Below, piece after piece: positions 7,564-45,228 of a stretch of DNA of 64,000 nt. The notes under the pieces are model-generated. The model worked only from the letters and a program-made list of their open reading frames with translations, had not been told where the DNA came from and did not search any database. Origin of the DNA: Mycobacterium sp. (GTDB lineage: Bacteria > Actinomycetota > Actinomycetes > Mycobacteriales > Mycobacteriaceae). The DNA lies in contig JAGQTV010000038.1 in assembly GCA_020438845.1 (NCBI GenBank), forward strand, positions 17,026-81,025, in the 5' to 3' direction. The stretch's first letter is position 1. Every line of letters begins with the position of its first letter. The position numbers and the translations under genes are program-made.

Positions 7564-7607
7564 CCAGGCGAGACTAGCGGTTAGGCAGGTGGTTACGCTG
7601 GTGCGCC

Positions 7608-8345: not shown

Positions 8346-8358
8346 GCCTGCTGCATCC

Positions 8359-11226: not shown

Positions 11227-11336
11227 CGTTGAACTTAGCCCATTTCACCCTCGTGACCACGGCAAACTCGACTGGCTGTCACCAAATTGTGCAGTTCGCA
11301 GGTTTCGTTTGACGTGAGCGGCGCGTGTACCGGGGC

Positions 11337-12566: not shown

Positions 12567-12624
12567 CCTGAGGTTTCCGGGCATCCTGAGGCGTTCTCCG
12601 GGTCCGCGAGCCAAGCGACAGGGC

Positions 12625-14957: not shown

Positions 14958-15064
14958 TGCAACGCAGGCTAACGCCTCGGTCGGGGCTGGTCTGGTCGGG
15001 CCTGCGGGAACCCGTCGGGAGCACTGCCGCAGAACAGCTATCGTTAGGGGGCTTTCCACCATAA

Positions 15065-15080
15065 GTTACCGGCTAGTAAC
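15065..15080. promoter_or_regulatory. candidate operator, inverted repeat GTTAC-N6-GTAAC
   Basis: A perfect 5-bp inverted repeat, gttac-cggcta-gtaac, lies in the divergent gap between the Rv3030-like gene and fixA, 86 bases before the fixA start. The size and symmetry fit a TetR/GntR-type operator. This is pattern only; no regulator gene is adjacent. Confidence 0.35.
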
Positions 15081-15165
15081 ATGGTGTGGTCAGCGAAAGT
15101 GACCCCAAACAAGCTCGAGCGGCCGGACGGCCGCCGGGCATCTGCCAGGAGGACGTAGATAAGCC

Positions 15166-15957: not shown

Positions 15958-16001
15958 AGCAGATCGCCTAGCCCGAAGACATTCGAGAAAAGAGAACCGT
16001 G

Positions 16002-16958
16002 ATGGCTGAAGTACTGGTGCTCGTTGAGCACTCCGATGGTGCGGTGAAGAAGGTCACCGCCGAACTCCTCACCGCGGCCCGTTCCCTGGGCGAGCCGTCG
16101 GCCGTCGTCATCGGCGCCCCCGGCACCGCGGCGCCGCTGGTAGAGGCACTCAAGGCCGCCGGCGCGGCCAAGATTTACGTCGCCGAGTCCGATGATGCGG
16201 AGAAGTACCTGATCACACCGTTCGTGGACGTGTTGGCTGAGCTGGTCGAATCGGCTGGCCCGGCGGCGGTGCTGCTGCCCGCGAGCGCTGACGGCAAGGA
16301 GATCGCGGGACGACTGGCGGCCCGCATCGGTTCAGGCGTGCTGTCCGATGTCGTGGAGGTCAAGGAGGGCGGCACCGGGGTCCACTCGATCTTCGGCGGG
16401 GCCTTCACCGTTGAGGCAAAGGTCAACGCTGACGTGCCAGTGATCACCGTGCGTCCCGGCGCAGTCGAGCCGGTGCCCAGCGCCGGTGCCGGCGAGCAGG
16501 TCACGATTGCGGTGCCGGCTCAGGCCGAGAATGCGACCCGGATCACCGCCCGGCAGCCCGTGGTCGCGGGCGACCGCCCGGAGCTCACCGAGGCCGCTGT
16601 CGTGGTCGCCGGTGGTCGTGGCGTCGGCAGTGCGGAGAAGTTCAGCGTCGTCGAGGCGTTGGCCGACTCGATGGGAGGTGCCGTTGGCGCTTCTCGTGCG
16701 GCGGTCGACTCCGGCTACTACCCGGGTCAGTTCCAGGTCGGCCAGACCGGCAAGACCGTCTCGCCGCAGCTATACATCGCGCTGGGAATCTCCGGGGCGA
16801 TCCAGCACCGCGCCGGCATGCAGACCTCGAAGACGATCGTCGCGGTGAACAAGGACGAGGAAGCTCCGATCTTCGAGATCTCCGACTACGGGATCGTGGG
16901 CGACCTGTTCAACGTCGCACCGCAGTTGACCGACGCCATCAAGGCCCGCAAAGGCTGA
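16002..16958 (+). CDS. fixB: electron transfer flavoprotein alpha subunit
   Basis: ETF alpha subunit of 318 residues (FixB/EtfA), partner of FixA. The N-terminal domain starts [17 protein letters not shown]. The C-terminal FAD-binding domain is intact: [40 protein letters not shown] with the [20 protein letters not shown] continuation, and [20 protein letters not shown]. An in-frame GTG three bases upstream (15999) is an alternative start. The transcript ends at a strong hairpin at 16979-17004. Confidence 0.95.
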
Positions 16959-16978
16959 TCGGCCGGCACAGCGCAGAG

Positions 16979-17018
16979 GGCTCCCGCACCCTGGTGCGGG
17001 AGCCTTCTGCGTCTTTTC
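16979..17018 (+). terminator. hairpin terminator after fixB
   Basis: Arms ggctcccgcacc (16979-16990) and ggtgcgggagcc (16993-17004) are perfectly complementary, giving a compact 12-bp GC-rich stem. It is followed by the T-rich tail ttctgcgtctttt. It lies 20 bases after the fixB stop and before the cysteine desulfurase start. Confidence 0.85.
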
Positions 17019-17053
17019 GGCCCTGGTGGGCACACCGGTATCCTGAACAGGCC

Positions 17054-18256
17054 ATGAGCCAGAATCGGTCGGTCTACCTCGACCATGCTGCCACCACCCC
17101 GATGTACCCACAGGCCATCGAGGCGATGGCTGGCGCGTTGGGCGAGTTCGGCAACGCCTCGTCGTTGCACACGGTCGGCCGTGCCGCCCGTCGCCGACTG
17201 GAGGAGTCTCGGGAGCGTATCGCCGCCCGGTTGGGTGCACGGCCCTCCGAGGTGATCTTCACCGCCGGGGGCACCGACAGCGACAACCTGGCCGTCAAGG
17301 GCATCTACTGGGCCCGGCGCGCGGCCGACCGGCGCCGACGTCGGATCATTACCACGGCCGTCGAGCATCACGCGGTGTTGGACGCCGTCACCTGGCTGGC
17401 TGAACACGAGGGCGCCGAGGTCACTTTCCTTCCGACCGAGGCAGACGGTTCGGTCACCGCCGAAGCGGTGCGGGAGACACTCGGTGACGGCGGCGACGTG
17501 GCCCTGGTGACGGTGATGTGGGCGAACAACGAAGTCGGCACCATCATGCCGATTTGTGAAATCGCCTCCATTGCAGCCGAGTTCGACGTGCCGATGCACA
17601 GCGATGCCGTGCAGTCGGTCGGGCAGATACCGCTTGACTTCGCCGGGTCGGGCTGCTCGGCGGTGAGCATCACCGCTCATAAGTTCGGTGGTCCTGTCGG
17701 CATGGGTGCGCTGCTGTTGCGCCGCGACACTGAGTGTGTGCCCTTGTCGCATGGTGGCGGTCAAGAGCGTGACGTCCGCTCCGGCACACCGGATGTCGCA
17801 GGGGCGGTAGCGATGGCAGTGGCCGCCGACCTGTCCGTCGGCCTGCTGGAGACGACCGCACGGCGGCTGCGCGGCCTGCGTGACGGACTCATTGACGGGG
17901 TGTTGGCGGCCATCGACGACGTGACGCTCAACGGTGCCCTCGGTGACCGTCGGCTTCCTGGCAACGCGCACTTCACCTTCCGCGGCTGCGAGGGGGACTC
18001 GTTGCTGATGCTGTTGGACGCCAACGGCATAGAGTGCTCCACAGGTTCGGCCTGTACCGCCGGGGTGGCGCGTCCGTCGCATGTGCTGTTGGCGATGGGC
18101 CAGCCCGCCGAACGGGCACGCGGCTCGCTGCGACTGTCCCTGGGGCACACCACTACCGGGGCCGACGTGGCGGCGGCGCTGCGGGTACTGCCCGCCGCGG
18201 TCGATCGGGCCCGACAAGCGGCCCTGGCCAGTGCCTCGGCGATCGGGCTTCGGTGA
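17054..18256 (+). CDS. iscS: cysteine desulfurase
   Basis: PLP-dependent cysteine desulfurase of 400 residues (IscS/NifS family) that supplies persulfide sulfur for Fe-S clusters and tRNA thiolation. It starts [20 protein letters not shown]; the PLP lysine is in [18 protein letters not shown] and the mobile catalytic cysteine in [14 protein letters not shown] 17054 begins just before the conserved N-terminus. The next gene, mnmA, needs this sulfur and follows after 13 bases, so the pair forms a tRNA 2-thiouridine unit. Confidence 0.95.
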
Positions 18257-31296: not shown

Positions 31297-31407
31297 GCTC
31301 CGTCTTAACCCGGTAGGTCAGGCTTCATAAGCCCCGCTGTCCTGCCGGGAGCAGTATCATGCTGGATCAGATGTCGGCCGATGGTTTCAGCATCAGGGAC
31401 GGAGGCA

Positions 31408-34062
31408 ATGGCAAGCGTGCCGATGCCGGATGCGGTCCCGGCAGATTTCGTCGCCGGCCAGGCGGGCCAAGCCATCGCGGACGACTACGTTTCCACGGTC
31501 CTGGTAGTCGACGACAACGCTCAACTGCGTGAGTTGCTCTGTGCGGTGCTTGCGCCGTTGAACTGCGACACCGTCGCGGTGGGTTCCGGTGAGGAAGCGC
31601 TCACCGAGTTGTTGCGGCGCAAGGTCGCTGTGATCATCCTCGATGTCAAGATGCCTGGGATCGACGGGTTCGAAACCGCCCAGCTGATCCGAGAAACCGA
31701 AGACTTCGCCACGACGCCGATCATCTTTCTCACCGGCGAGGCCGGGGCAGACAGTGATCTGGAAAAGGGCTATCGGCTGGGCGCGGTCGATTTCCTGATC
31801 AAGCCTGTTTCCCGGCATGTGCTCTTCGCCAAGGTCAAGGCCCTGCTGGAACTGGATCAGTCCTTCGCCCGGCTGAGGCACGAAGCCGCGGAGTTTCACA
31901 CCCAGCAACTCCGTGCGGCCCGCGAAGCAGAGGTCAGGCAGCGCGAGGAGTTGATCTTCACCCAGCGACGGGAACGGCTGACCAACATCTTTGCCGAAGC
32001 GAGCATCGACGTGAAGGCCTTACAGGAAGCCATCGTCGCTGAGGTGAGTCAGTTGTTCGACGCCGATTGCGGGCTGCGCCTGTCGTCGCCCGGTCACGGT
32101 TGGCATGAACCTCTCTCGCTCGCCGTCTCCGGTGACACCTGTCCGGTGATGGAAGCCTGGCTGGTCGGGCGTCCGGCGGAGCAGGGTCAGCGGGCGGCGC
32201 CTTACGACCAGATGATGGTGGAGGATTTGACTGCCCGAGGGCGGGGTGTCGGTGTTCTCTGCGTCGGACGACCCGACGGTCGTCCTTTCTCTGACATCGA
32301 AGCTGCGCTGTTTCGGGGGGTATCGGTCGCCGCGGCCCTGGCGGTGTCCAACGCGACCCTCTATCAGGTTCAGGCCGAGTATGCGGCCGTCATGCAAGCC
32401 AGCGGCGACGCGATCCTCGCCGTCGATTCCTCAGGTGCCATCCGCAGCTGCAACAAGGCGGCGGCAGCCTTGTTCGGGGGAGATGCGGACACCCTGATCG
32501 GCCGTTCCATCCTGGAATTCGCCGCCGACGCCGATCGAGAGCGGCTGCGGGAGCGGGTGATCAATAACCTCGCATCACAGGAAGGTTCGTTGGAGATGGT
32601 GTGCGTCTCCCGGGACGGACGTCATGTCGAGGTCGCGGTGACGTTGTCCCCGATCGGCGATTCGGTCGAACTGCACGTCGCGGCGGTGGTCCATGACCTG
32701 ACCGAGATCAAACGTGCGCAGAGCGAAATCCGGCATCTGGCCAGCCACGACCCCCTGACCGGCCTGGCCAACCGACGAGAGTTGAACGCCCGGCTTGTCG
32801 ACGTGGTTGCCGACCACGAGATCAGCGGGGATGTAGCGGCACTGCTGTACATGGACGTCAACCACTTCAAGGCGGTCAACGACACCTATGGTCACGATGC
32901 CGGGGACGACTTGTTGGTGGCCGTGGCCAATCGAATTCGAGCCGCGGTACGTGCCGAAACGCTGGTAGCCCGTATCGGCGGGGACGAGTTCGTCGTCTTA
33001 CTGGAACATCTCCCATCGGTGAGCGCTGCCGCGGCAGCCGGAAACCGAATTCTGAAACAAATTCAGACTGAACCGATTTCGTGCCGAAACGCCACCATTA
33101 AACCCTCCGTGAGTATGGGCATCGGCTGCCTGGGCGACACCGCCGGGGACCCCGACGAGTTGCTGTCTCACGCCGACCTGGCGATGTTCGCGGCCAAGAG
33201 CAACGCCCTGGAAGAGGCCGTTGTCTACACCGATCTGATCGGATCGCGATACCGGGAGAAATCCCACCTGCGAGCCAGATTGCCGGAGGCCCTGGAACGT
33301 TCCGAAGTTCGCATGGTTTACCAGCCGATCGTCCATGCCGAGACGGGCGCCTTGTTCGGCATCGAAGCCCTTATTCGTTGGCAGGTGGGCGACGAGGAGG
33401 TGCCTCCCCGCGAGATCGTCTCGCTGGCTGAGACTTCCAATCAGATGGGGGCGCTCGGTCAATGGATTTTGAGGCGTAGCTTCCGGGATTACCTGGCTCT
33501 GGGCAGAAGCGATCTGCGTCTGCATGTCAATCTGTCACCCCACCAACTGCTCGAAGCCGGCTTTCTGGAAGAACTGACCAACGCCTGCCGGGACAGCGAG
33601 CTGACCCCGGCCACCGTGTGTCTGGAACTCACCGAACACGCTTTCAGCAGAGAGCCTGCTCCGGCCTACGCGGCGTTGCGCAGGGCCAAGGACTTCGGGT
33701 TCAGCCTGGCGATCGACGAATTCGGGGTGGAATACGCCAGCATGACCAATCTGCTCGAGGTACCTGCCGACTGGCTCAAGATCGATCGATCCTTCATCGC
33801 CGGCCTGCTCGAGAGCGAACGACTGCAACGGCTTGTGCGCGGACAGATCGCGGTTGCTGCATCCATGCAGGTGGATCTGATCGCGGTGGGAGTCGAGACC
33901 CAGGCGCAGGCCGACTGGCTCCGAGAGGCAGGATGTGTACTGCACCAGGGCTTCTTGTATAGCCAGCCCGTCGAGACCGATGAACTGGCCGCTCTGATCG
34001 GGAGGCACTGGCCAGGACGTCGCGAACAGCCCGGAACCGACGATGGAAGCAGTGCAGTGTGA
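31408..34062 (+). CDS. REC-GAF-PAS-GGDEF-EAL c-di-GMP signalling protein
   Basis: Cytoplasmic signalling protein of about 884 residues, first gene of a four-gene operon. Order: receiver domain (30-150, phospho-acceptor D79 in IILDVKMPG, Lys in FLIKPVS), coiled coil, GAF-like (190-330), PAS (335-445), GGDEF domain with intact GGDEF at 524-528, and EAL domain with EAL at 653-655. The diguanylate cyclase half looks active. In the EAL half the canonical DDFG is IDEFG, and other ligands (VNLSP, LELTE, DWLKID, VGVETQAQ) remain. I chose ATG 31408 for its ggacggagg; ATG 31381 is in frame. It is probably phosphorylated by the next gene product. Confidence 0.9.
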   Translation: MASVPMPDAVPADFVAGQAGQAIADDYVSTVLVVDDNAQLRELLCAVLAPLNCDTVAVGSGEEALTELLRRKVAVIILDVKMPGIDGFETAQLIRETEDFATTPIIFLTGEAGADSDLEKGYRLGAVDFLIKPVSRHVLFAKVKALLELDQSFARLRHEAAEFHTQQLRAAREAEVRQREELIFTQRRERLTNIFAEASIDVKALQEAIVAEVSQLFDADCGLRLSSPGHGWHEPLSLAVSGDTCPVMEAWLVGRPAEQGQRAAPYDQMMVEDLTARGRGVGVLCVGRPDGRPFSDIEAALFRGVSVAAALAVSNATLYQVQAEYAAVMQASGDAILAVDSSGAIRSCNKAAAALFGGDADTLIGRSILEFAADADRERLRERVINNLASQEGSLEMVCVSRDGRHVEVAVTLSPIGDSVELHVAAVVHDLTEIKRAQSEIRHLASHDPLTGLANRRELNARLVDVVADHEISGDVAALLYMDVNHFKAVNDTYGHDAGDDLLVAVANRIRAAVRAETLVARIGGDEFVVLLEHLPSVSAAAAAGNRILKQIQTEPISCRNATIKPSVSMGIGCLGDTAGDPDELLSHADLAMFAAKSNALEEAVVYTDLIGSRYREKSHLRARLPEALERSEVRMVYQPIVHAETGALFGIEALIRWQVGDEEVPPREIVSLAETSNQMGALGQWILRRSFRDYLALGRSDLRLHVNLSPHQLLEAGFLEELTNACRDSELTPATVCLELTEHAFSREPAPAYAALRRAKDFGFSLAIDEFGVEYASMTNLLEVPADWLKIDRSFIAGLLESERLQRLVRGQIAVAASMQVDLIAVGVETQAQADWLREAGCVLHQGFLYSQPVETDELAALIGRHWPGRREQPGTDDGSSAV

Positions 34063-37000
34063 ATCTCGCAAACCGATTGGCGATCCTGGCCGGCTCGGCA
34101 TTGTTGTCCATCATTCTTGCGGCGGGCATGTTCACCTGGCAGACCGCCCGTATCTCAAATCTTTACGAAAAGCGTTTCGAGGCAAGCCAAGCCGCCTCCA
34201 CAGCGCTGACCATCGATGGGGACCTGACCGAATTCGTCACGGCAGCCTACGGTCTGTTGTTCGTCAAGGATCAGGGGCGGCGTGCCGAACTGTCCGCGGC
34301 GGTGGACCGACTGGGGAAAGCGATCGACGCGGAGCTTCGCGAAGCGACAGATCAAGCCGGGCAGGACAGCGATCGACTGCTGTACCAGTCTGCTCTCTCG
34401 AGCTGGACAACCTTCCGGTCGCTCTACCAGGCCCCACGGGACGCAGTGCCGGAGGCTGGACAGGCAGCTGCTGCAACGCTCCTGGACAGCCAGACCGCCC
34501 CCGTCGAAGGACAAATTCAGCGCATCGTTGACCAGGATGAGCTCGCCATCCGGCAGGCTGATGCAGCGGCGCGGGCGGCGATACACACCAGCCGGATCGT
34601 CATCTGGGTCGCTTCGACCGTGATCGTGCTCGGGCTGGGTGTGCTGCTCTTCCTCACCAGCCGGAAGATCTATCACGCGGTAAATCAAGCCACCGAAAAG
34701 TCCGAACGAGCAAGGCGGTTCAAGGAAACTCAAGCGGACCTGATGACCGAGGTACAAGGCGAGACCGACCTGGCCGGTGCGTGCGGGATCATCGTGACGC
34801 GCACGGCGCAGGCACTGGGCGCCAGCCACGGAGCCTTTTATCTGAAGCAGACCACTGACGTGCCCCGCTTCGCCCTGATGGCGTCCTACGCCTTCCACCG
34901 CCGCAAGGACTTGCCGAACTCGTTCGGACTGGGGGACGGTCTCGTCGGTCAATGCGCCTTGGAGGGGCAGCGCATCGAAATCACCGAGGCCCCGGCCGAT
35001 TACGTCGAGATCGTTTCGGGGCTGGGCAAGACCCAGCCGGTTTCGCTGATTCTGGTTCCCGTCATGTTCGAGTCCGAAGTCCTCGGCGTTCTGGAGTTCG
35101 CCTCACTTCGCCCCTTCTCCCACGACGACAATGAGCTCTTGGACAGCGTGGCGCTGGGAGCCGGAGTTGCCATCGCTGCGATCGAAGCGGCGCAGAAGAC
35201 CCGGGAACTGCTACAGGTGTCCAAGGCCCAGACCGAAGAACTCCAGACCCAGGAGGAGGAACTTCGCGCGGCCAATGAGCAGCTGATCCAACGCGAAGAA
35301 CGGCTGTCTGCGCAGAATGCGGAACTGGAGGAGCAAACCGAGCAACTGCGCTCACAGAAGGAAGAACTGAAGGCGAGTTCCGAGACGCTCGAAGCGCAGG
35401 CCGACGCGCTGGAGAAAAAGAACGACGAACTGCATCGCCTCAGTAAATCGCTGGAGGCGAAGGCCGAAGATCTGGCCGTCGCGTCCCGGTACAAGTCGGA
35501 ATTCCTGGCCAACATGTCGCACGAACTGCGCACGCCGCTGAACAGCATCCTGATCCTGGCAGGTCTTCTCGGTGACTCGGGTGATCCGCTGACCGAGAAA
35601 CAGCAGGAATTCGCGGAGACGATCGAACAGTCGGGGCGCGACTTGCTGAATCTCATCGATGAGGTCTTGGATCTCGCGAAGGTCGAATCTGGCTCGTTGC
35701 GCTTCGAACAGGAAGACATCGACATCACTCAGCTCGTCAGTTTCCTGGAGAGGACCTTCCGGCCTATCGCCGAGAACAAGGGGGTGGTCTTCCGTGTCGT
35801 GGTCAACGAGAGTGCTCCGCGGGAGATCACGAGCGACTACACGCGGGTGAAACAGATCGCGAAGAATCTCGCGGCGAATGCAGTGAAGTTCACCGATGAG
35901 GGATCGGTCACGGTGACGCTCTCGGGGGCCGCTGACACCCAGGGCAATCCCGGAGATCGTTATCTCGCGATCGCCGTCACCGACACCGGCATCGGGATCG
36001 ACAAGGTCGACCACAACCTGATCTTCGAATCGTTCCAGCAGGCAAATCGTGGATCCACCCGGCAGTACGGCGGTACTGGTCTTGGCCTGGCCATCAGTCG
36101 CGATCTGGCCCGCCAGCTGGGTGGTGAGATAACGCTGATCAGCGCACCGGGACAAGGTTCGACCTTCACGTGTTATCTGCCTGTCCGAGTTGGGCCCGGT
36201 GCCGAAAACCAGCGGGGAGGGGCGCCGACGCCCGCAGCGGCCGCCAGGAGTGCCGCCAGCCCGGTGCCGTCGGCGGTTGCGTCCAGCGCCCCCGTCGGCG
36301 CACCCGTCCCCGTCGAGGCGCCGATTGCTCGGGTGACCGGGACTGTAGAGAGTCGGCAAGCCGAATCCGCACCGGCCGAAGAGTCGGTGGACATCTCGGA
36401 CGTCGCCTGGCCGGATGGGGAAAGACCGGTCCTGTTGATAGTGGAGGACGATCGGACCTTTGCCGGGATGTTGGCCGAACTGGCCAGGGAGACAGGCTTC
36501 GATGCGGTCATCACACCGAGCGGTCGTGCGGCCCTGGCCCTGGCCCGGGAACGTCAACCCGCCGCCATCTCCCTGGATATCGGCCTACCCGACATGGCGG
36601 GCTGGGTTGTTCTGGATGTCCTCAAACACGATCTTGCGACCCGACACATACCGGTGGACATCGTTTCCGGTGCAACGGATGTCGCTCGTGGTCGCCGGAT
36701 GGGCGCCATCCATACGCTGAGCAAACCCGCCGACGTCACCGCCATCCGTTCGATGTTGCGGGCCACCGCTGAGTTTCTGCGGCCGGGACCGCGGCAGGTG
36801 CTGGTGGCGGCTGCCGACGATGACAAACAGCGTGCGTTGTCGGAAACCCTGATGGAGGGCGGCGATATTTCCATCGCCACGGTCAGCACCGGCGAACAAG
36901 TGCTGGCCGAGTTGAACGGACCGACGCACTACGACTGCCTGGTCCTCGATCTCGGATTGCCCGACATCGACGGGATCGACCTCATTGAACGCATCAAGGA

Positions 37001-37637
37001 CCAAGTCAACGAGGCGAGTCTGCCGGTGATCGTGCACACCGACCGGGAATTGACCGCTGCCGAAACAGAACGACTGGAAGTGCTGGCCGCCGCCATCGTT
37101 CTGAAGAATGCGAAATCGCCGGAGAGGCTGCTCGACGAGACCGCGCTGTTCCTGCACCGTGTGGCCGACGACCTACCGGATGAGGCTCGCGCGATCCTGG
37201 CCAATCCGACGCCGTTCGACGAGTCACTCAAGGGCAACACGGTTCTCCTCGTCGACGACGACGTGCGAAACGTCTTCTCGCTCGGCAGCGCGTTGAAGCG
37301 GTACGGCATTACGGTGGTCCCGGCCCGCAACGGGCAGGAGGGAATTGACAACCTCGCCGCTCATCCAGAGATCGACCTCGTTCTGATGGACATGATGATG
37401 CCCGTGATGGACGGGTATGAGGCGATGCGCCGTATCCGTAGCGAGGCCCGGTGGCGAGACCTGCCCATCGTCGCGCTCACTGCGAAGGCCATGAAGGGCG
37501 ACCGGCAGAAGTGCCTGGACGCGGGTGCTTCCGATTACGTCACAAAGCCCGTCGACATGGATCAACTCACCTCCGTTCTCCGGGTGTGGTTGGCCAGCCG
37601 GCCCCGACGGGTGCGAGGACTCTCCGAGCAGCGATGA
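34059..37637 (+). CDS. membrane hybrid histidine kinase with three receiver domains
   Basis: Sensor kinase of 1192 residues. TM1 (7-29), an extracytoplasmic helical sensor (30-180, CHASE3/4HB-like), TM2 (181-203), GAF (about 235-380), a long Glu/Gln-rich coiled coil (385-475), then the HisKA domain with phospho-His H488 in MSHELRTPLN. The HATPase carries NLAANAVKF, VTDTGIGI and GGTGLGLAI. A Pro/Ala linker leads to three receivers with Asp at D840 (SLDIGLPD), D964 (LVLDLGLPD) and D1111 (LVLMDMMMP). No Hpt domain is present, so phosphate flow beyond the receivers is unclear. GTG overlaps the upstream stop by four bases (GTGA). Confidence 0.92.
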   Translation: MNLANRLAILAGSALLSIILAAGMFTWQTARISNLYEKRFEASQAASTALTIDGDLTEFVTAAYGLLFVKDQGRRAELSAAVDRLGKAIDAELREATDQAGQDSDRLLYQSALSSWTTFRSLYQAPRDAVPEAGQAAAATLLDSQTAPVEGQIQRIVDQDELAIRQADAAARAAIHTSRIVIWVASTVIVLGLGVLLFLTSRKIYHAVNQATEKSERARRFKETQADLMTEVQGETDLAGACGIIVTRTAQALGASHGAFYLKQTTDVPRFALMASYAFHRRKDLPNSFGLGDGLVGQCALEGQRIEITEAPADYVEIVSGLGKTQPVSLILVPVMFESEVLGVLEFASLRPFSHDDNELLDSVALGAGVAIAAIEAAQKTRELLQVSKAQTEELQTQEEELRAANEQLIQREERLSAQNAELEEQTEQLRSQKEELKASSETLEAQADALEKKNDELHRLSKSLEAKAEDLAVASRYKSEFLANMSHELRTPLNSILILAGLLGDSGDPLTEKQQEFAETIEQSGRDLLNLIDEVLDLAKVESGSLRFEQEDIDITQLVSFLERTFRPIAENKGVVFRVVVNESAPREITSDYTRVKQIAKNLAANAVKFTDEGSVTVTLSGAADTQGNPGDRYLAIAVTDTGIGIDKVDHNLIFESFQQANRGSTRQYGGTGLGLAISRDLARQLGGEITLISAPGQGSTFTCYLPVRVGPGAENQRGGAPTPAAAARSAASPVPSAVASSAPVGAPVPVEAPIARVTGTVESRQAESAPAEESVDISDVAWPDGERPVLLIVEDDRTFAGMLAELARETGFDAVITPSGRAALALARERQPAAISLDIGLPDMAGWVVLDVLKHDLATRHIPVDIVSGATDVARGRRMGAIHTLSKPADVTAIRSMLRATAEFLRPGPRQVLVAAADDDKQRALSETLMEGGDISIATVSTGEQVLAELNGPTHYDCLVLDLGLPDIDGIDLIERIKDQVNEASLPVIVHTDRELTAAETERLEVLAAAIVLKNAKSPERLLDETALFLHRVADDLPDEARAILANPTPFDESLKGNTVLLVDDDVRNVFSLGSALKRYGITVVPARNGQEGIDNLAAHPEIDLVLMDMMMPVMDGYEAMRRIRSEARWRDLPIVALTAKAMKGDRQKCLDAGASDYVTKPVDMDQLTSVLRVWLASRPRRVRGLSEQR

Positions 37638-38488
37638 ACGTGCCCGACGAGGAGTCCGGGTCGCAGTGGTCCCGGGAGCTGACGCGGATCGAGGCGGAGG
37701 CATTCTTTTACACGGTCTACGAGCATCTCGGACACGACTTCCGGCACTACAGTGACGCATCCCGGAATCGTCGGCTGGTGGGATTCGTGCGCAGGCATTC
37801 GCTCGGCACCATTTCCGAGGCGCAGGGAAGGGTTCTGCGCGACCCCGAGCTCCAATCGGCCTTCCTGTCCGAAATGACGGTCAACGTGACCGAAATGTTC
37901 CGAGATCCCCAGGTGTTCGCCAAGATTCGCACCGAATTGGTGCCCCGGCTGGCGACCTATCCGCGAATACGGGTGTGGGTGGCCGGCTGCGCGACGGGGG
38001 AGGAGGCCTATTCCATGGCCATCTTGCTCGCCGAAGTCGGCTTGCTCGAGCGGACCACCATTTACGCGACCGACATCGACACCGTCTCGCTGCGGACCGC
38101 CACCGCGGCGATCTACCCGGCCGACGCGATGATCCGTGCCACCCGCAACTACCAGGCCAGCGGAGGCGACAGGCCATTCTCGGATTGGTACCTCGCCAGA
38201 TACGACCGCTGCATTCTCAGCCCCGACCTACGGCCGCGCATCGAATTCTTCTCCCACAATCTGGCCACCGACAGCACGTTCGCGGATTTCCACCTGATCT
38301 TGTGCCGCAACGTGTTCATCTATTTCGAGCACAGCCTTCAGCGCCGCGTGGAACTTCTTTTCTGGGAGAGTCTGGTGCCCTTCGGCCATCTCGTCATTGG
38401 TCCGCGGGAAACCCTCACGCCCGAGAGTGCCAAGCAGTTTGCCCCGTTGGACCGCAGGCTGGGAATCTATGTCAAGCGTCACGACTAG
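37634..38488 (+). CDS. cheR: CheR-type protein-glutamate methyltransferase
   Basis: CheR-like SAM methyltransferase of 284 residues. The N-terminal helical CheR_N domain (residues 10-80) precedes the SAM domain with RVWVAGCATGEEAYSMAILL, YATDIDTVSLRTA and the closing LILCRNVFIYFEH. In chemotaxis CheR methylates chemoreceptor glutamates; no chemoreceptor, CheA or CheW is encoded here, and mycobacteria lack flagella, so the target must differ. ATG 37634 overlaps the kinase stop (ATGA). The frame is open further upstream inside the kinase gene, but that part is not conserved. Confidence 0.9.
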   Translation: MNVPDEESGSQWSRELTRIEAEAFFYTVYEHLGHDFRHYSDASRNRRLVGFVRRHSLGTISEAQGRVLRDPELQSAFLSEMTVNVTEMFRDPQVFAKIRTELVPRLATYPRIRVWVAGCATGEEAYSMAILLAEVGLLERTTIYATDIDTVSLRTATAAIYPADAMIRATRNYQASGGDRPFSDWYLARYDRCILSPDLRPRIEFFSHNLATDSTFADFHLILCRNVFIYFEHSLQRRVELLFWESLVPFGHLVIGPRETLTPESAKQFAPLDRRLGIYVKRHD

Positions 38489-39119
38489 CGCGTCGGTGCC
38501 GAACGTCATCGTCTTCGGAGGCAGCGCCGGTGGCATGAATGCGCTGAAAGGGATTTTCGAGACTTTCGACCAGATCGGAAACAGCATCGTCGTCGTGGTT
38601 CTGCACCGCGACCCGAAGGATTCACCATTGGCCGAGGTGCTGCAGAACTACACAACCATCCCGATCCGCGAACCCGACGACAGCCCCTGGACGCCTCCGG
38701 AAGGGGTGGTCGCGGTGGCCCCGGCCGGATACCACCTTCTGCTCGGCAATACCCGAACACTCGTGTCAGAACCCCCGACCCCGGTCTCCCTCTACGAGAA
38801 CGGCACTGGTGTGCGGACCCACCTGACTCTGGACCCGCCCGTCGCGTACTCCCGTCCCTCGCTGAACGTAACCTTCTCCAGCGCAGCCGAACTCGTCAAC
38901 CCCGTGACAGTTGTCCTGCTGTCGTGCGCGAACGACGACGGTGCGCGCGGCTGTGAGGTGGTGAAAGCATCGGGGGGAAGAGTGGTGCTCCAGGATCCGG
39001 CCTCGTGCCAGGCGCCCACCGCGGTCAACTCGGCGATGCGCACGGTGCAACCGGACTTCGTTGCCGATCCGCGGGCGATCGGTATGTGGCTGTCGCGGAA
39101 CGCCGCTCGGGGCAGGTGA
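38469..39119 (+). CDS. cheB: CheB-type protein-glutamate methylesterase
   Basis: Methylesterase-domain protein of 216 residues without a receiver domain. The catalytic triad can be assigned: S19 in VFGGSAGGMNAL, H46 in VVLHRDPKDSPL and D157 in LSCANDDGARG. The segment YSRPSLNVTFSSAAEL matches the RPS-x-DxLFxSAA family stretch. It would demethylate or deamidate whatever CheR modifies. ATG 38469 overlaps the 3' end of cheR by 20 bases. Having no N-terminal receiver, it might be regulated by the stand-alone REC domains of the two upstream proteins. A hairpin follows the stop. Confidence 0.9.
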   Translation: MSSVTTSASVPNVIVFGGSAGGMNALKGIFETFDQIGNSIVVVVLHRDPKDSPLAEVLQNYTTIPIREPDDSPWTPPEGVVAVAPAGYHLLLGNTRTLVSEPPTPVSLYENGTGVRTHLTLDPPVAYSRPSLNVTFSSAAELVNPVTVVLLSCANDDGARGCEVVKASGGRVVLQDPASCQAPTAVNSAMRTVQPDFVADPRAIGMWLSRNAARGR

Positions 39120-39396: not shown

Positions 39397-40368
39397 ATGG
39401 CGTCTGTTCTGTGGTTCCAAGGAGGAGCGTGCAGTGGTAACACCATGTCGTTCCTCAACGCTGAGGAACCCAATGTCGTCGACCTGATCGTCGACTTCGG
39501 GCTGGACCTGATCTGGCATCCGTCGCTGGGTCTGGAATTGGGCGCCAATGCCCAGAAGCTGTTCTGGGATTGCGCCAAGGGTGAGCGTCCGTTGGACGTC
39601 TTCGTCTTCGAGGGCACGGTCATCGAGGCTCCGAACGGCACCGGCCGAATGGACATGTTCGCCGACCGCCCGATGAAGGACTGGGTGACTGACTTGGCCA
39701 AGCAGGCCGGGATCGTCGTCGCGATCGGTGACTGCGCCTGCTGGGGCGGCATCCCGGCGATGGAGCCCAACCCGTCGGCCTCAACGGGCTTGCAGTTCCA
39801 CAAACGCAACAAAGGCGGCTTCCTGGGCCCGAACTTCAAGTCCAAGGCCGGCCTGCCGGTGATCAACATCCCCGGCTGCCCGGCCCACCCGGACTGGATC
39901 ACCCAGATCATCGTTGCGCTGGCCACCGGCCGCACCGGGGATATCGCACTCGACGAACTGCAGCGCTCGCAGACCTTCTTCAAGACCTTCACCCAGACCG
40001 GTTGCACCCGAGTGCAGTTCTACGAGTACAAGCAGTCCACCGAATCGTTCGGCGAAGGCACCCGCACGGGTTGCCTGTTCTACGAGTTCGGCTGCCGCGG
40101 ACCGATGACCCACTCGCCGTGCAATCGGATCCTGTGGAACCGGCAGTCGTCGAAGACCCGTGCGGGTCATCCCTGCATCGGTTGCACCGAGCCGGAGTTC
40201 CCGCACTTCGACCTCGCACCGGGGACTTTGTTCAAGACCCAGAAGGTCGCCGGGGTGATCCCGAGGGAAACCGGCACCGGAACCAAGACGCTGACCTACA
40301 TGGCTGCTGCCGCCGCGGCCAGGCTGGCCGCCCCGAAATGGTCCAAAGAGGACATGTTCGTGGTGTAG
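39397..40368 (+). CDS. hhyS: [NiFe]-hydrogenase small subunit, group 1h (Hhy type)
   Basis: Electron-transfer subunit of a high-affinity, oxygen-insensitive uptake hydrogenase (323 residues). Fe-S ligands are seen at C12 in WFQGGACSGNTMSFL, C113/C115 in GDCACWGGIP, NIPGCPAHPDW, C233 in FEYGCRGP-like FGCRGPMTHSPC, and CIGCTEPEFPHFD. The related Ralstonia enzyme has a 3-Cys/1-Asp proximal cluster. There is no twin-arginine signal, as expected for this group. It lets the cell oxidise atmospheric H2 during starvation. It starts at ATG 39397 with gaggag upstream; the large subunit follows after 49 bases. Confidence 0.95.
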   Translation: MASVLWFQGGACSGNTMSFLNAEEPNVVDLIVDFGLDLIWHPSLGLELGANAQKLFWDCAKGERPLDVFVFEGTVIEAPNGTGRMDMFADRPMKDWVTDLAKQAGIVVAIGDCACWGGIPAMEPNPSASTGLQFHKRNKGGFLGPNFKSKAGLPVINIPGCPAHPDWITQIIVALATGRTGDIALDELQRSQTFFKTFTQTGCTRVQFYEYKQSTESFGEGTRTGCLFYEFGCRGPMTHSPCNRILWNRQSSKTRAGHPCIGCTEPEFPHFDLAPGTLFKTQKVAGVIPRETGTGTKTLTYMAAAAAARLAAPKWSKEDMFVV

Positions 40369-40417
40369 CCCCCGCCCCGAGACCCGCTGCCAATCAGAAC
40401 TTTTGGAGGATTTTCCC

Positions 40418-42025
40418 ATGACCTCACTGGATCTCCACGTCAGTCCGCTCGGTCGCGTCGAGGGCGACCTCGACGTCCGGGTCACAATCGACGACGGGGT
40501 CGTCACCTCGGCGTGGACCGAGGCCGCCATGTTCCGCGGCTTCGAGATCATCCTGCGCGGCAAGGACCCACAGGCCGGCCTCGTCGTATGTCCCCGTATT
40601 TGCGGCATCTGTGGCGGAAGCCACCTGTACAAGTCGGCCTACGCGCTGGACACCGCTTGGCGCACCACGATGCCCGCTAACGCCACCCTGGTGCGCAACA
40701 TCGCCCAGGCCTGCGAAACCCTGCAGTCCATTCCGCGCTATTTCTATGCGCTGTTCGCCATCGACCTGACCAACAAGAACTACGCCAAGTCCTCGCTGTA
40801 CGACGAGGCAGTTCGCCGCTTCGCGCCCTACGTCGGAACCTCGTACCAAAAGGGTGTGGTGCTCTCCAACAAGCCCGTCGAGGTCTACGCGATCTTCGGC
40901 GGCCAGTGGCCGCACTCCAGTTTCATGGTGCCCGGTGGGGTCATGGGCGCGCCGTCGCTGTCCGACGTGACCCGTTCGACGGCGATCCTGGAGCACTGGA
41001 AGGACAACTGGCTCGAGGCCGTGTGGTTGGGGTGCAGCGTGGATCGCTGGCTGGAGAACAAGACCTGGGAGGACGTGCTGGCCTGGGTCGACGAGAACGA
41101 GTCGCAGTACAACAGCGACTGTGGCTTCTTCATCCGCTACTGCCTCGACATCGGACTGGACAAATACGGCCAGGGGGTGGGCAACTACATCTCCACCGGC
41201 ACCTACTTCGATCCGGCGCTGTATCAGCGCCCGACCATCGAGGGGCGCAACGCCGCCCTGATCGGCCGGGGCGGCGTCTTCGCCGACGGTCAGTACTACG
41301 AGTTCGACCAGGCCAAGGTGCGCGAGGACGTGACCCACTCCTTCTATCAGGGCAACAGGCCGTTGCATCCCTTCGAGGGCGAGACCATTCCCGTCGACCC
41401 GGAGAAGGGCAAGACGCAGGGCAAGTACAGCTGGGCCAAATCGCCACGCTACGAGGTGGGTGACTCCGGCACCATCCCGTTGGAGGCCGGCCCGCTGTCG
41501 CGGCGGATGGCTGCTGCCGGGCCGGGGGCGGCCAAGCATCAGGACAACGACCCGCTCTTCCTCGACATCTATAACAAGATCGGGCCCAGCGTCATGGTCC
41601 GCCAGCTGGCCCGGATGCACGAGGCGCCGAAGTACTACAAGTGGGTGATGGGGTGGCTCAAGCAACTCGACCTCAAGGGCAGCTTCCACAAGAAGCCCAC
41701 CGAACACGCTGAAGGCAAGGGCTTCGGCTCGACAGAAGCCGCCCGGGGTGCGCTGAGCGACTGGATCGTCATCGAGAACAGCAAGATCAAGAATTACCAA
41801 GTGGTGACTCCGACGGCGTGGAACATCGGCCCGCGCGACGGCAGCGAGCAGCTCGGCCCGATCGAGAAGGCGCTGGTGGGCTCGCCGATAGTCGACCCGG
41901 AGGATCCTGTCGAACTGGGCCATGTGGCACGCAGTTTCGACTCCTGCTTGGTCTGCACCGTGCACGCCTATGACGGCAAGACCGGCAAGGAACTGTCGAA
42001 GTTCGTCATCAACGGCATGGTCTGA
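40418..42025 (+). CDS. hhyL: [NiFe]-hydrogenase large subunit, group 1h (Hhy type)
   Basis: Catalytic subunit of 535 residues carrying the NiFe(CN)2CO site. L1 motif: RICGICGGSH with C62 and C65. L2 motif: DSCLVCTVH with C510, C513 and H516, having Ser where other groups have Pro. Nineteen residues follow H516, a cleavable C-terminal extension, consistent with the protease gene that comes next. ATG 40418 is preceded by ttggagga. The first conserved segment, SPLGRVEGDLDV, follows directly. The adjacent accessory genes have the same orientation with tiny gaps or overlaps. Confidence 0.96.
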   Translation: MTSLDLHVSPLGRVEGDLDVRVTIDDGVVTSAWTEAAMFRGFEIILRGKDPQAGLVVCPRICGICGGSHLYKSAYALDTAWRTTMPANATLVRNIAQACETLQSIPRYFYALFAIDLTNKNYAKSSLYDEAVRRFAPYVGTSYQKGVVLSNKPVEVYAIFGGQWPHSSFMVPGGVMGAPSLSDVTRSTAILEHWKDNWLEAVWLGCSVDRWLENKTWEDVLAWVDENESQYNSDCGFFIRYCLDIGLDKYGQGVGNYISTGTYFDPALYQRPTIEGRNAALIGRGGVFADGQYYEFDQAKVREDVTHSFYQGNRPLHPFEGETIPVDPEKGKTQGKYSWAKSPRYEVGDSGTIPLEAGPLSRRMAAAGPGAAKHQDNDPLFLDIYNKIGPSVMVRQLARMHEAPKYYKWVMGWLKQLDLKGSFHKKPTEHAEGKGFGSTEAARGALSDWIVIENSKIKNYQVVTPTAWNIGPRDGSEQLGPIEKALVGSPIVDPEDPVELGHVARSFDSCLVCTVHAYDGKTGKELSKFVINGMV

Positions 42026-42033
42026 CTCCGGGC

Positions 42034-42870
42034 GTGGCCGACGCTGAACACCCTTTGGCAGAACACACAGCGGCCGAACAGTCCGGCGTGGACATCGACC
42101 CGCCGGGGTACGACGCCCTCGTAGTCGGTTGTGGCAACCTGCTGCGGGGGGACGACGGTGTGGGTCCCGTTCTGGTGCGCCACCTTTGGGACCGCGGCGT
42201 ACCCAACGGTGCGCGGCTGGTCGACGGCGGAACCGCTGGGATGGACGTCGCATTCCAAATGCGGGGAGCGGCGCGGGTCGTGATCGTCGACGCCTCGATG
42301 ACGGGCGCCGCGCCGGGAACGGTGTACCGGGTACCGGGCGAGGAACTGGCCGACCTGCCACCGCTACAGGGTCTGCACACCCACTCGTTCCGCTGGGACC
42401 ACGCGATTCCGTTCGCCCGTTGGGCGCTCGGTGACGCCTGCCCCACCGACATCACCGTGTTTCTCATCGAAGCCGCCGACGTCGAGATGGGTGCCGAGTT
42501 GTCCGAACCGGTGCAGACGGCCATGGAGCAGGTGATCGAGGCGATCGAGCGGGACTTCTTCGCCCCGTTGCGCCCCCAGACGGCGAACTGCGTCAGTGTC
42601 GAGATCACCGCCGAGGGATACCTGCGGCTGGACTCAGGCTTGGCCGCCAGCCGGTTTCCCTCCGACGCGGTGGCGGCAGTGCTGCGCGACGACGCGCTGT
42701 GGCTGATTCCGTTGCGTGGCCCCAGCAGCGGCGGTCTGCTGCTGAAACAACGCAATCCGGCGGGAGACCGCGCCGTTCTGGTTCGCGACGTGCTGCCGGA
42801 AGGTTTCCCGGTGGGCGTCCGTACGGCATTCTGGGACGATGACCGCAGGGCGCTCCGAATCCCGGGGTGA
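42034..42870 (+). CDS. hydrogenase maturation protease with extra C-terminal domain
   Basis: Protein of 278 residues. The first 165 match HybD-type endopeptidases: VVGCGNLLRGDDGVGPVLVR with the metal-binding Asp, VDGGTAGMDV and VIVDASMTG. It should trim the large-subunit C-terminus after nickel insertion. Residues 175-278 form an additional domain (NCVSVEITAEGYLRLDSGLA; LLLKQRNPAGDRAVLVRDVL) not found in ordinary HybD proteins of about 160 residues; its role is unknown. GTG 42034 lies eight bases after the large-subunit stop. The next gene starts at the last base of its stop codon. Confidence 0.88.
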   Translation: MADAEHPLAEHTAAEQSGVDIDPPGYDALVVGCGNLLRGDDGVGPVLVRHLWDRGVPNGARLVDGGTAGMDVAFQMRGAARVVIVDASMTGAAPGTVYRVPGEELADLPPLQGLHTHSFRWDHAIPFARWALGDACPTDITVFLIEAADVEMGAELSEPVQTAMEQVIEAIERDFFAPLRPQTANCVSVEITAEGYLRLDSGLAASRFPSDAVAAVLRDDALWLIPLRGPSSGGLLLKQRNPAGDRAVLVRDVLPEGFPVGVRTAFWDDDRRALRIPG

Positions 42871-43118
42871 TGCTCATGACTGAGCAGCGACCCAAGACCG
42901 TTGTCCGTCAAAACAGCTCCACCGACGAGGCACTGGACGTGCAGACCGTCGTGGTCGAGGAGCGCGGCCGGTGGGCCGTTGAGATCGTCGTGGTCTTCGC
43001 CGACGGCGTGGTCCGGAAAAGGATCGACACCCATGCCAGCCGGGCCCGCGCCGAATTATCGGCCAACCTGATCAGACGCGCCGCTGAACGCAACATCACC
43101 GGCCCCGTGAACGGGTGA
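42870..43118 (+). CDS. small hydrogenase-operon protein, unknown
   Basis: Protein of 82 residues. After a polar N-terminus the sequence TVVVEERGRWAVEIVVVFAD and the following basic helix (RKRIDTHASRARAELSANLI) suggest a short beta-hairpin plus helix fold. No known domain is recognised. Its ATG overlaps the protease stop by one base, and its own stop is followed 11 bases later by the TPR gene, so it is firmly part of the hydrogenase operon. ATG 42876 is an alternative start. It may aid assembly; that is only a guess from position. Confidence 0.75.
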   Translation: MLMTEQRPKTVVRQNSSTDEALDVQTVVVEERGRWAVEIVVVFADGVVRKRIDTHASRARAELSANLIRRAAERNITGPVNG

Positions 43119-43129
43119 GGGAGGAAAAC

Positions 43130-44368
43130 GTGGCTGCAACCGAAGCAGCGAGGCAAACCGTCCTGGCGGTCCGGCCTCAGCCGCTGGGAGTCTTCCCGCT
43201 GCCCCTTGGTTACCTGTTGATCCGGGCCTCGCCTGCGACCGAGGGCGCCCGCATGGACCTGCTGGCCGGTCGGCTGCCGGACTGGCCGGAGGCCTTGCGC
43301 GCCCACAAGCTGGCATCAGCCGGAGACCGGGAAGGTGCATTGTCGGCTCTGGAGGGCGCCGATCCAGTCTCCCGCTACAACCGCTTCGTGATGGATCCCG
43401 ATTCCGAGGATCCCGACGAGTTGCGTTCGGAATTAGGTGAATTCGGTGTGCTGGTCGACGTGGTCCAGTTCGCCCTGGGGCGCTGCGATACCGCTCCGGC
43501 GGTTGGTGCGGCCACCGGCGAACTGGCGGCGGTGGTGCTGTCCACACAGGCCGGTCAGGCTCTCGACGAGGGCGATGTGACCGGTGCGCTGGCGTTTCTG
43601 GACCGGGCTGCCGAGGCGGCCGCCGGAGTGTCCGAACCGCTGCGCGGCGTGCTGCTCGGCGCGTCCGGGTCGATCAGCCAGGCCGCCGACGCGGTCAGTC
43701 GCTACGAGCGGGCGCTGCGTGCCCTCGACGGTGCCGGGGACCTGCGGGTAGCGCGGGCCGAACTGCACCTGGCCCTGGCCGGGGTGTTGCACGAACAGTC
43801 CGTGGACCGGCCTGAAATGTTGGCTCGCGCTGTGCCGCATTACCATTCGGCGCTGCAACTGGTGCTGCGAGCGGAGGCGCCCCTGCTCTGGGCCGCCGCG
43901 CACGCCAACCTGGCGACCGCCTATCTGACCATGCCGATGACCGAGGCCTCAAGTCAATTGCGGCTGGGTGTCGCAGCGCAGTCGCTGCGCTCGGCGCTGA
44001 AGGTCTACACCCGGGAGGACCATCCCGAGCAGTGGGCCAGCGTGCAGCTGAACCTGGCCAATTCGCTGGTGTACACGCCGTCGAACCATCAGGCCGACAA
44101 CCTGGTTGAGGCAGTGGAGCTCTATGAGGCAGTGCTGGCTGCCCGTGACCGACACACCGACCCCCTGGGCCGGGCGCGGGTGTTGGCGAATCAGGGCAAT
44201 GTGCTGGCCCACCTCGGCGACTTCGACCAGGCCAAGGCCAAACTCTATGACGCCCGCTTCCTGTTCGAGGAACTCGGTGACGATGACTCGGTGCGCACCG
44301 TACGCGGGGTGCTCGACGAGATTGCCCGCCAACAGGCGCTGGCCCGAACAGAAGCGACGCCTCAATGA
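43130..44368 (+). CDS. TPR-repeat protein of the hydrogenase operon
   Basis: Helical-repeat protein of about 412 residues. TPR-like pairs are visible from about residue 65 (LRAHKLASAGDREGALSALE) through ALSFLDRAAEAA-like repeats to the C-terminus (GRARVLANQGNVLAHLGDFD, QAKAKLYDARFLFEELGDDD). Such proteins scaffold complex assembly; one is commonly encoded with group 1h hydrogenases. GTG 43130 is preferred for gggagga five bases upstream. GTG 43115, which overlaps the previous stop, is also in frame. The stop overlaps the NifU-Rieske gene (ATGA). Confidence 0.85.
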   Translation: MAATEAARQTVLAVRPQPLGVFPLPLGYLLIRASPATEGARMDLLAGRLPDWPEALRAHKLASAGDREGALSALEGADPVSRYNRFVMDPDSEDPDELRSELGEFGVLVDVVQFALGRCDTAPAVGAATGELAAVVLSTQAGQALDEGDVTGALAFLDRAAEAAAGVSEPLRGVLLGASGSISQAADAVSRYERALRALDGAGDLRVARAELHLALAGVLHEQSVDRPEMLARAVPHYHSALQLVLRAEAPLLWAAAHANLATAYLTMPMTEASSQLRLGVAAQSLRSALKVYTREDHPEQWASVQLNLANSLVYTPSNHQADNLVEAVELYEAVLAARDRHTDPLGRARVLANQGNVLAHLGDFDQAKAKLYDARFLFEELGDDDSVRTVRGVLDEIARQQALARTEATPQ

Positions 44369-45228
44369 GCGGGGCCGGGGCGTCGCCCGAGCCGACCTTC
44401 GAGGATCTGGCACAGCGAGTGGACGACGCTGTCGCCGCGCTGAACGATCTGGACCCTCCTGCCCGGAAAGTGGCGCAGGAGTTGCAGACTGCCGTGGAGT
44501 CCGTCCACCGCGCCGGCCTGGTCACCATCGTGCGCCGGTTGCGTGCCGATGATTCCACTCGCGATGTGCTCTTCGAGTTGGCCGACGACCCCGTGGTGCA
44601 TCTGTTGCTGACGCTGCACGGGATCATTCGGCCGGATCCGTTGACCCATGCCCACCAGGTGCTGGATGCGGTCCGCCCGCAGTTGCACAGCCATGGCGGG
44701 GACGTGGTCCTGGTTGGGGTCGAGGACGGCACGGCATTCGTACGCCTGGAAGGGGCCTGCAACGGTTGCTCGATGTCCTCGGTGACTCTGCGGAACCTGG
44801 TGGAAGAGGCACTGCTGCAGGGAGTGCCTGCCATCACCGGGGTGGAGGTGGTGGCGAACGAGCCGACGCCGACGCTGATCCCGGTTGAGTCGCTGCGAAT
44901 CGGCCCGGATCCGGCCGCTGAAGGTTGGGTGAAAGTCGCTCCTGTCGTTGATATTCCGGCTGGCGAGCTGTCGACGGCCACCCTGGACGGGGTGAGCCTG
45001 CTGATCGTGAATGTCGGCAATCGGCTGTCGGCCTATCGCAACGAATGCGCCCACGAGGCACTGCCGCTGGACGAGGCCGAGCTTGACCTGTCCACCGGCA
45101 CGCTCACCTGCCCGTGGCACGGGTTCTGCTTCGACGCGAGTTCGGGGGAGTGCCTGACCGCGCCGGGTGCCCAACTCGAACAGGTTCCGCTACGCATCTA
45201 CGACGGCGAGATTTGGGTGCGCCCTTAG
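44365..45228 (+). CDS. NifU C-terminal domain - Rieske fusion protein
   Basis: Fe-S protein of 287 residues, last gene of the main hydrogenase operon. Residues 90-165 are a NifU-type domain with CNGCSMSSVTL, the cysteine pair that holds a labile [4Fe-4S] cluster. Residues 185-287 are a Rieske domain with ligands in CAHEALPL and CPWHGFCFD. It is a good candidate for relaying electrons from the hydrogenase to the quinone pool or for cluster delivery; both are inference from domain content and position. The N-terminal 85 residues are helical and unassigned. The start overlaps the TPR stop by four bases. Confidence 0.88.
   Translation: MSGAGASPEPTFEDLAQRVDDAVAALNDLDPPARKVAQELQTAVESVHRAGLVTIVRRLRADDSTRDVLFELADDPVVHLLLTLHGIIRPDPLTHAHQVLDAVRPQLHSHGGDVVLVGVEDGTAFVRLEGACNGCSMSSVTLRNLVEEALLQGVPAITGVEVVANEPTPTLIPVESLRIGPDPAAEGWVKVAPVVDIPAGELSTATLDGVSLLIVNVGNRLSAYRNECAHEALPLDEAELDLSTGTLTCPWHGFCFDASSGECLTAPGAQLEQVPLRIYDGEIWVRP

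Follow-up and report, generated by a model that had tools for sequence, protein, structure and literature searches.

We have analysed a 64,000-nucleotide stretch of Mycobacterium sp. DNA (assembly GCA_020438845.1, contig JAGQTV010000038.1, positions 17,026 to 81,025 of the forward strand), referred to here as the window, and describe an operon of four genes within it that encode a cyclic di-GMP (c-di-GMP) signalling protein, a hybrid histidine kinase, a CheR methyltransferase and a CheB methylesterase domain protein. We consider it probable that this is a cassette of the RsbK-RsbM or CfcA-CfcB-CfcC type, in which CheR and CheB reversibly modify a coiled coil of the kinase, which in turn drives the c-di-GMP protein. 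Systems of this type are already known and the locus itself has been noticed in print, the mycobacterial cassette being a little-studied member; what is added here is the co-inheritance of all four genes including that for CheB, the absence of detectable chemoreceptor and CheW genes throughout the genome, the placement of the CheR in an RsbM-like subfamily linked to kinases, and a change in the EAL domain that is specific to the window.

Organization of the operon

The genes, all on the forward strand of the window, are as follows.

31381..34062, forward strand: gene 1, REC-PAS-GGDEF-EAL c-di-GMP protein, 893 amino acids, response-regulator type (Pfam)
34059..37637, forward strand: gene 2, hybrid histidine kinase of the RsbK/CfcA type, 1192 amino acids, GTG start
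37634..38488, forward strand: cheR, CheR methyltransferase of the RsbM-like subfamily, 284 amino acids
38469..39119, forward strand: cheB, CheB methylesterase domain protein without a receiver, 216 amino acids, ATG at 38469

The end of gene 1 and the start of the kinase gene share the sequence GTGA, the end of the kinase gene and the start of cheR share ATGA, and cheB overlaps cheR by 20 bp; the four genes are translationally coupled. An earlier reading of the window from its sequence alone had proposed this unit, and its coordinates and couplings stand. The domains that it assigned are likewise present, with the exception of a GAF domain in gene 1, which is sub-threshold in Pfam (E 0.0099; 16.5 bits against a cut-off of 28.6): the REC, PAS, GGDEF and EAL domains of gene 1 all score above cut-off, as do the GAF, HisKA, HATPase and three REC domains of the kinase. 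Scans for promoter and terminator patterns gave nothing above chance.

From its N-terminus the kinase is arranged as a helical sensor between two hydrophobic stretches, a GAF domain, a long coiled coil (the signalling helix), HisKA and HATPase domains, and three receivers. The hydrophobic stretches, near residues 8–25 and 180–200, were read from the sequence by eye and are putative transmembrane segments; the sensor between them matches 4HB_MCP_1 below cut-off (E 0.0064). The predicted phospho-acceptor is encoded as follows.

35520..35522, forward strand: codon of H488, predicted phospho-acceptor histidine of HisKA

H488 and the receiver aspartates D840, D964 and D1111, all four singled out in the sequence-only reading, are the same in all 17 mycobacterial kinases of the alignment.

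The CheR SAM domain is matched at E 3.7e-38 and the helical CheR_N domain falls slightly below cut-off; the protein aligns with a solved CheR, and all 19 aligned rows retain the CheR motifs. CheB has a methylesterase domain only (residues 14–205, E 1.3e-30) and no REC match in Pfam, and its S19, H46 and D157 align with the residues that we take to be the catalytic triad of the solved T. maritima CheB. H46 and D157 are present in all 19 rows and S19 in 18, the nineteenth being cut at its N-terminus by the chosen start. The CheR is thus intact and the receiver-less CheB has an assignable Ser-His-Asp triad, as had been read from the sequence.

Chemotaxis genes elsewhere in the genome

Chemoreceptors are the textbook example of proteins methylated on glutamate, and CheR and CheB could in principle be relics of ordinary chemotaxis or serve an array missing from the assembly. 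Profile searches of the whole genome (4.5 Mb in 118 contigs, given as 99.78% complete) gave no match at E ≤ 0.001 to the signal domain of methyl-accepting chemoreceptors (MCPs) and none to the CheW domain, which CheA also carries. The sequence-only reading had found no CheA, CheW or MCP gene close to the operon and had named an array encoded elsewhere as the finding that would overturn it; the absence now extends to the genome (Hpt was not searched for), and no such array turned up. MCP and CheW matches were also absent from 17 of the 18 relatives that carry the operon. Relics or a hidden array would be in keeping with the eighteenth, G032, which has matches to MCP and CheW/CheA. These lie on contigs C45 and C42 (L081–L083), with two CheW matches in one 794-residue frame; either the assembly is contaminated or this mycobacterium does have a chemosensory array. 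Because MCP and CheW are missing here and in 17 of 18 relatives, and the catalytic motifs are kept in 19 orthologues, we reject this explanation as highly improbable; the CheB subfamily, lacking the N-terminal receiver, is also unlike the CheB of canonical chemotaxis adaptation.

The genome contains three CheB and four CheR matches in all: the window pair, two CheB-CheR-PAS fusions on contig C37, and a weak CheR match on C40 (E 4.2e-4). The fusion genes lie in C37:9000–28000 (L074), at L074:3833–7006 (reverse strand) and 10940–14599 (forward strand); the same 19 kb holds a GGDEF-EAL gene (6898–9510, reverse), adjoining one fusion on its own strand, a PAS-GGDEF gene (2493–3791, forward), a REC-multi-PAS frame (14287–16194, forward) and a HisKA-HATPase-REC hybrid kinase frame (16023–18020, forward). 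Each CheB/CheR locus of this genome, in the window and on C37, therefore has both c-di-GMP enzymes and a kinase near it. Like the operon, the two fusions tie CheB and CheR to sensory domains without chemoreceptors; unlike it, they do so in one polypeptide.

Co-inheritance of the four genes in the genus

With the window CheB as query some match was found in 59 of 148 genomes of the genus, and 18 of these (the window's own included) stand apart, with orthologues at E ≤ 1.9e-72 and 56–100% identity; the next match is at 6.6e-11. The kinase is found at E ≤ 1e-150 in 17 of the 148 genomes, all among the 18 with CheB and none elsewhere; in the remaining CheB genome (G093) the contig starts within the last 46 codons of the kinase gene. 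Orthologous loci also occur in Mycobacterium sp. 1164985.4 and in Mycolicibacterium sp. S2-37, in agreement with the placing of the window in mycobacteria by the sequence-only reading. We compared 18 loci, 17 from CheB-positive genomes of the genus and one from G481. The four genes have the same order and strand in 16, the other two (L057 and L061) being cut by contig ends; the distance from kinase gene to cheR is −8 to +5 bp in all 18, and the gene for the c-di-GMP protein is adjacent in every locus with enough DNA (16/16). Co-occurrence had been proposed in the sequence-only reading as a check of the unit, and because the genes do co-occur across the genus the operon is more than a chance assembly.

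When loci are grouped by flanking DNA (at least 500 bp shared in the 2.4–2.6 kb upstream or the 6 kb downstream, a measure whose group number divergence may inflate), the 16 intact loci and the window form several groups, with the window alone in its own; the four genes stay together though their neighbours differ. Directly downstream in the window (39397–45228) are genes for the small and large subunits of a NiFe hydrogenase, a maturation protease, a tetratricopeptide repeat (TPR) frame and a NifU-Rieske protein. GatA/GatB, PfkA and the hydrogenase genes were considered as members of the unit and rejected, since they were not found beside the operon in the 18 relatives, a single 32% match to a GatA-type amidase excepted.

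A CheR subfamily linked to hybrid kinases

Across the phylum (396 genomes searched), 122 genomes have a match to the CheR at E ≤ 1e-15, and outside the genus eight genomes stand out at E ≤ 4.6e-59, with the next match at 3.8e-37. In all eight a hybrid kinase lies directly upstream of cheR (the L091 contig has only the receiver end of it) and CheB follows in seven, the L096 contig ending inside cheR. We also examined 14 plasmid loci, 13 of them CheR matches and one (L076) found first as a kinase match, among the matches listed, which are the best 40 of 587 records; a related kinase is directly upstream of CheR in all 14, and thus in 22 of 22 non-mycobacterial loci overall. Two more distant CheR genes (L098 and L099; 33% identity) have no such kinase adjoining, L098–L102 being compared by BLAST only.

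The window CheR is 45% identical over 252 residues to that of Niallia taxi (L108), whose kinase, CheR and opposite-strand REC-SpoIIE gene have the RsbK-RsbM-RsbY layout, and 30% identical to the one fused CheR of its own genome that was compared. It is thus nearer to an RsbM-type protein than to its own-genome relative, and by sequence belongs to the kinase-linked RsbM-like subfamily. We note that many actinobacterial genomes with no CheR match (L138–L158, among them 6–10 Mb genomes of a single genus, g27) have close relatives of the kinase; such kinases may be without the methylation pair through loss or from the outset.

Comparison with described systems

Two characterized systems resemble the cassette; the publications are cited here from the parts of their text available to us. 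In Bacillus cereus, the hybrid kinase RsbK is reported to be methylated on its S-helix by RsbM, which represses RsbK output, and the same paper mentions 127 RsbK-like kinases in 10 phyla, with RsbM lacking a paired methylesterase (PMC4574943). As in RsbK-RsbM-RsbY, a GAF and signalling-helix hybrid kinase is directly followed in the window by a CheR-type gene. The B. cereus system differs in having no CheB, a REC-PP2C phosphatase and SigB as output, and one receiver in RsbK rather than three. RsbK is a CHASE3-HAMP-GAF-S-helix protein; the window sensor gives a sub-threshold 4HB_MCP_1 match, CHASE3 is seen in 2 of 17 orthologues, and HAMP is not among the matches. This likeness is by description, the sequence comparison having been made with the Niallia CheR.

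In Pseudomonas putida CfcR (D65), a REC-PAS-GGDEF-EAL regulator, depends for its cyclase activity on the hybrid kinase CfcA (H496), and cfcB and cfcC encode CheR and CheB proteins for which a role in chemotaxis was ruled out (PMC4951495; the CHASE3/GAF description of CfcA is from PMC6849547). The window shares with strain KT2440 a multisensor hybrid kinase clustered with CheR and CheB, and a REC-PAS-GGDEF-EAL protein as the output, which in the window is the probable one. Unlike gene 1, however, CfcR is encoded elsewhere in KT2440, lying beside cfcA in P. resinovorans (PMC4951495), and the P. putida cluster has five genes (CfcA-CfcB-CfcC-D-E) in a genome that also has chemotaxis CheB/CheR systems. 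Here too we compare descriptions, not sequences.

Within mycobacteria, PMC8115616 reports rsbK/rsbM homologues in 17 of 244, with rsbM directly downstream of rsbK and a REC-PAS diguanylate cyclase/phosphodiesterase gene (Mflv_0999-type) near them. By description, and not by sequence, this is the same locus as that of the window, and the view that the arrangement is unprecedented is not supported. The available part of the main text makes no mention of CheB, CheR, a methyltransferase or a methylesterase. According to the available part of PMC10950880, M. smegmatis has no RsbM homologue.

The coiled coil as candidate substrate

Because RsbK is a published case of a methylated kinase, we regard the coil of the window kinase as the likely substrate of CheR, by analogy. 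The relevant positions are as follows.

35232..35483, forward strand: coiled coil, residues 392–475, proposed methyl-accepting region
35256..35261, forward strand: E400-E401 (EELRAA), candidate site by the chemoreceptor consensus, present in 18/18 aligned orthologues, window included
35361..35366, forward strand: E435-E436 (EELKAS), candidate site at −53/−52 from the phospho-histidine (H-53/H-52), consensus in 16/18 aligned orthologues

The coil consists of twelve heptads with an invariant leucine each seven residues from 395 to 472, is rich in Glu-Glu and Glu-Gln pairs, and has Glu-rich b and c heptad positions. Counted by invariant columns its conservation matches that of the ATPase domain (57/105 and 64/118, respectively), which fits a conserved interaction surface; the sensor has 2/145.

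CheR and CheB could instead act on the N-terminal helical sensor of the kinase, on the c-di-GMP protein, or on some protein whose gene lies elsewhere. The sensor is likewise helical, and RsbK is the one published case of direct methylation (PMC4574943, in the part available). The sensor, however, would be a poor common substrate, since it is the least conserved part of the kinase and is replaced by another domain in some orthologues (2 of 17 match CHASE3, with no HAMP among the domain matches), and the c-di-GMP protein has no conserved site of the chemoreceptor consensus [EQ][EQ]xx[AST][AST] in 17 aligned rows. A substrate other than the coil is, in our judgement, quite unlikely. The alignments of the L062 and L068 kinases to that of the window begin only at residue 215 or 200 and their sensors differ; these are perhaps the two CHASE3 orthologues, as if sensors were swapped on a constant coil and kinase.

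Nowhere in the 1192-residue kinase but at the coil sites 400 and 435 do 80% or more of the aligned orthologues share the consensus. The glutamate pair at H-53/H-52 is present in 28 of 39 CheR-linked kinases overall and in 2 of 26 unlinked ones; among the linked kinases it occurs in 17 of 18 mycobacterial and 11 of 11 actinobacterial, Deinococcus or Bacilli rows (L158, which has no H-box, was left out of the count). Four unlinked rows (L142, L144, L146 and L157), both unlinked positives among them, were then removed because their contigs end less than 2.5 kb downstream of the kinase core and a CheR could be missing; outside the alpha- and beta-proteobacterial lineage the pair is then in 28 of 29 linked and 0 of 22 unlinked kinases. 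Of those 22, six plasmid rows (L127 included) were checked for CheR in the adjoining DNA and 11 by their flanks, and the remaining five (L143, L145, L151, L152 and L153) were judged unlinked solely because their genomes gave no CheR match. Glutamate at H-52 alone does not discriminate, being present in 28/29 linked and 15/22 unlinked kinases; the sole mycobacterial row without it is the kinase of G032.

The CheB family also deamidates glutamine. Residue 429 is a glutamine in the window and a glutamate in 17 of 18 aligned rows, which would fit such an activity.

The c-di-GMP protein and the output of the kinase

The GGDEF motif of gene 1 is intact in 17 of 17 aligned rows and the EAL motif is likewise kept. 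Two substitutions in the EAL domain are found in the window only, at positions that are acidic in all 16 other rows.

33718..33720, forward strand: E780, DEFG in the window and DDFG in 16/16 aligned orthologues
33886..33888, forward strand: V836, AVGVE in the window and AEGVE in 16/16 aligned orthologues

In EAL enzymes the residues at these two acidic positions bind metal or belong to the active site. Because both are changed, the EAL half of the window protein may be inactive and the protein perhaps mainly a cyclase, as reported for CfcR. By analogy, CfcA/CfcR is a close published parallel for a c-di-GMP output (PMC4951495, in the part available).

PMC8115616 proposes SigF as the output of the mycobacterial rsbK/rsbM homologues. 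The operon would then be a stress module, in which RsbM-like methylation inhibits an RsbK-like kinase whose targets are a PP2C-type phosphatase and SigF, with the GGDEF-EAL protein secondary; the RsbK/RsbM homology and the presence of 11 SpoIIE-type phosphatase domains in the genome agree with this proposal. Against it, the available part of the same paper states that no RsbY was found in mycobacteria, none of the seven SpoIIE places scanned among the 11 has a receiver (five of the seven frames are cut at the locus end), and the sole protein of response-regulator type in the operon is the c-di-GMP protein. A SigF module therefore seems unlikely as the explanation of the cassette.

A proposed mechanism and the evidence that bears on it

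In the cassette as we picture it, the membrane hybrid kinase would use its N-terminal helical domain and its GAF domain to sense a stress signal, and would autophosphorylate on H488. The phosphate would pass, through the kinase receivers or directly, to the REC domain of the REC-PAS-GGDEF-EAL protein and so change c-di-GMP output. CheR would methylate glutamates on the Glu-rich signalling helix just upstream of the phospho-histidine, and the receiver-less CheB would remove the methyl groups and may deamidate glutamine. The kinase would thus stand in for a methyl-accepting chemoreceptor, with its gain set by a reversible covalent mark.

Several findings weigh against this proposal. Two or more consensus sites arise in 127 of 1000 shuffles of the coil columns (free, with heptad leucines fixed) and in 156 of 1000 heptad-preserving ones; since shuffled coils reach as many, the sites at 400 and 435 are unusable as proof. 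The consensus motif is also missing from most non-mycobacterial linked kinases, Niallia included, and the site predictions E435/E436 and E400/E401 are only suggestive. The H-53/H-52 glutamate pair is lacking in all 10 linked alpha- and beta-proteobacterial kinases, and in a kinase tree of 51 rows (ten near-identical mycobacterial rows removed; long-branch warnings) linkage differs in only two independent pairs on supported branches and four on all branches (sign test p = 1); the association of this pair with CheR is suggestive, not significant. CheB is present in seven of the 14 plasmid loci and none was found in the other seven (three from Deinococcus, that of Niallia, two from Rhodobacterales and that of Sphingobium sp. 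TKS, in which cheR is followed by a transposase), and demethylation of B. cereus RsbK is thought unlikely (PMC4574943, in the part available); for these two reasons reversibility is not general. Other P. putida cfc mutants kept the c-di-GMP (crinkle) phenotype, according to an unpublished remark in the available part of PMC4951495. Finally, both MCP and CheW occur in G032, an assembly 93% complete in 400 contigs.

That CheR and CheB act on a target other than a chemoreceptor, most likely the neighbouring kinase, is nevertheless well supported indirectly, because MCP and CheW are undetected here and in 17 of 18 relatives, kinase and CheB co-occur, all 22 non-mycobacterial loci have the kinase upstream, and RsbM/RsbK is a published precedent. 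This part of the sequence-only reading survives.

Significance

In many phyla hybrid kinases have a member of a large CheR subfamily encoded next to them, and for one such pair, RsbM/RsbK, there is a biochemical report. The mycobacterial cassette offers a clean setting in which to test the idea, since no other MCP or CheW was found and the kinase, CheR, CheB and output protein are in one operon; CheB, missing in RsbK-RsbM, would make the mark reversible. We propose more tentatively, and with rather less than even confidence, that it is an adaptation loop without a chemoreceptor, in which the hybrid kinase is itself the receptor that accepts methyl groups, the mark on its signalling helix is written by CheR and erased by a receiver-less, constitutive CheB, and the c-di-GMP output provides a chemotaxis-like memory in a non-motile bacterium, with the EAL activity possibly lost here to leave a one-way cyclase. 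If the proposed mechanism is true, c-di-GMP signalling would be subject to sensory adaptation without a chemoreceptor array, which would point away from SigF, towards another output, for the rsbK/rsbM homologues already published from mycobacteria.

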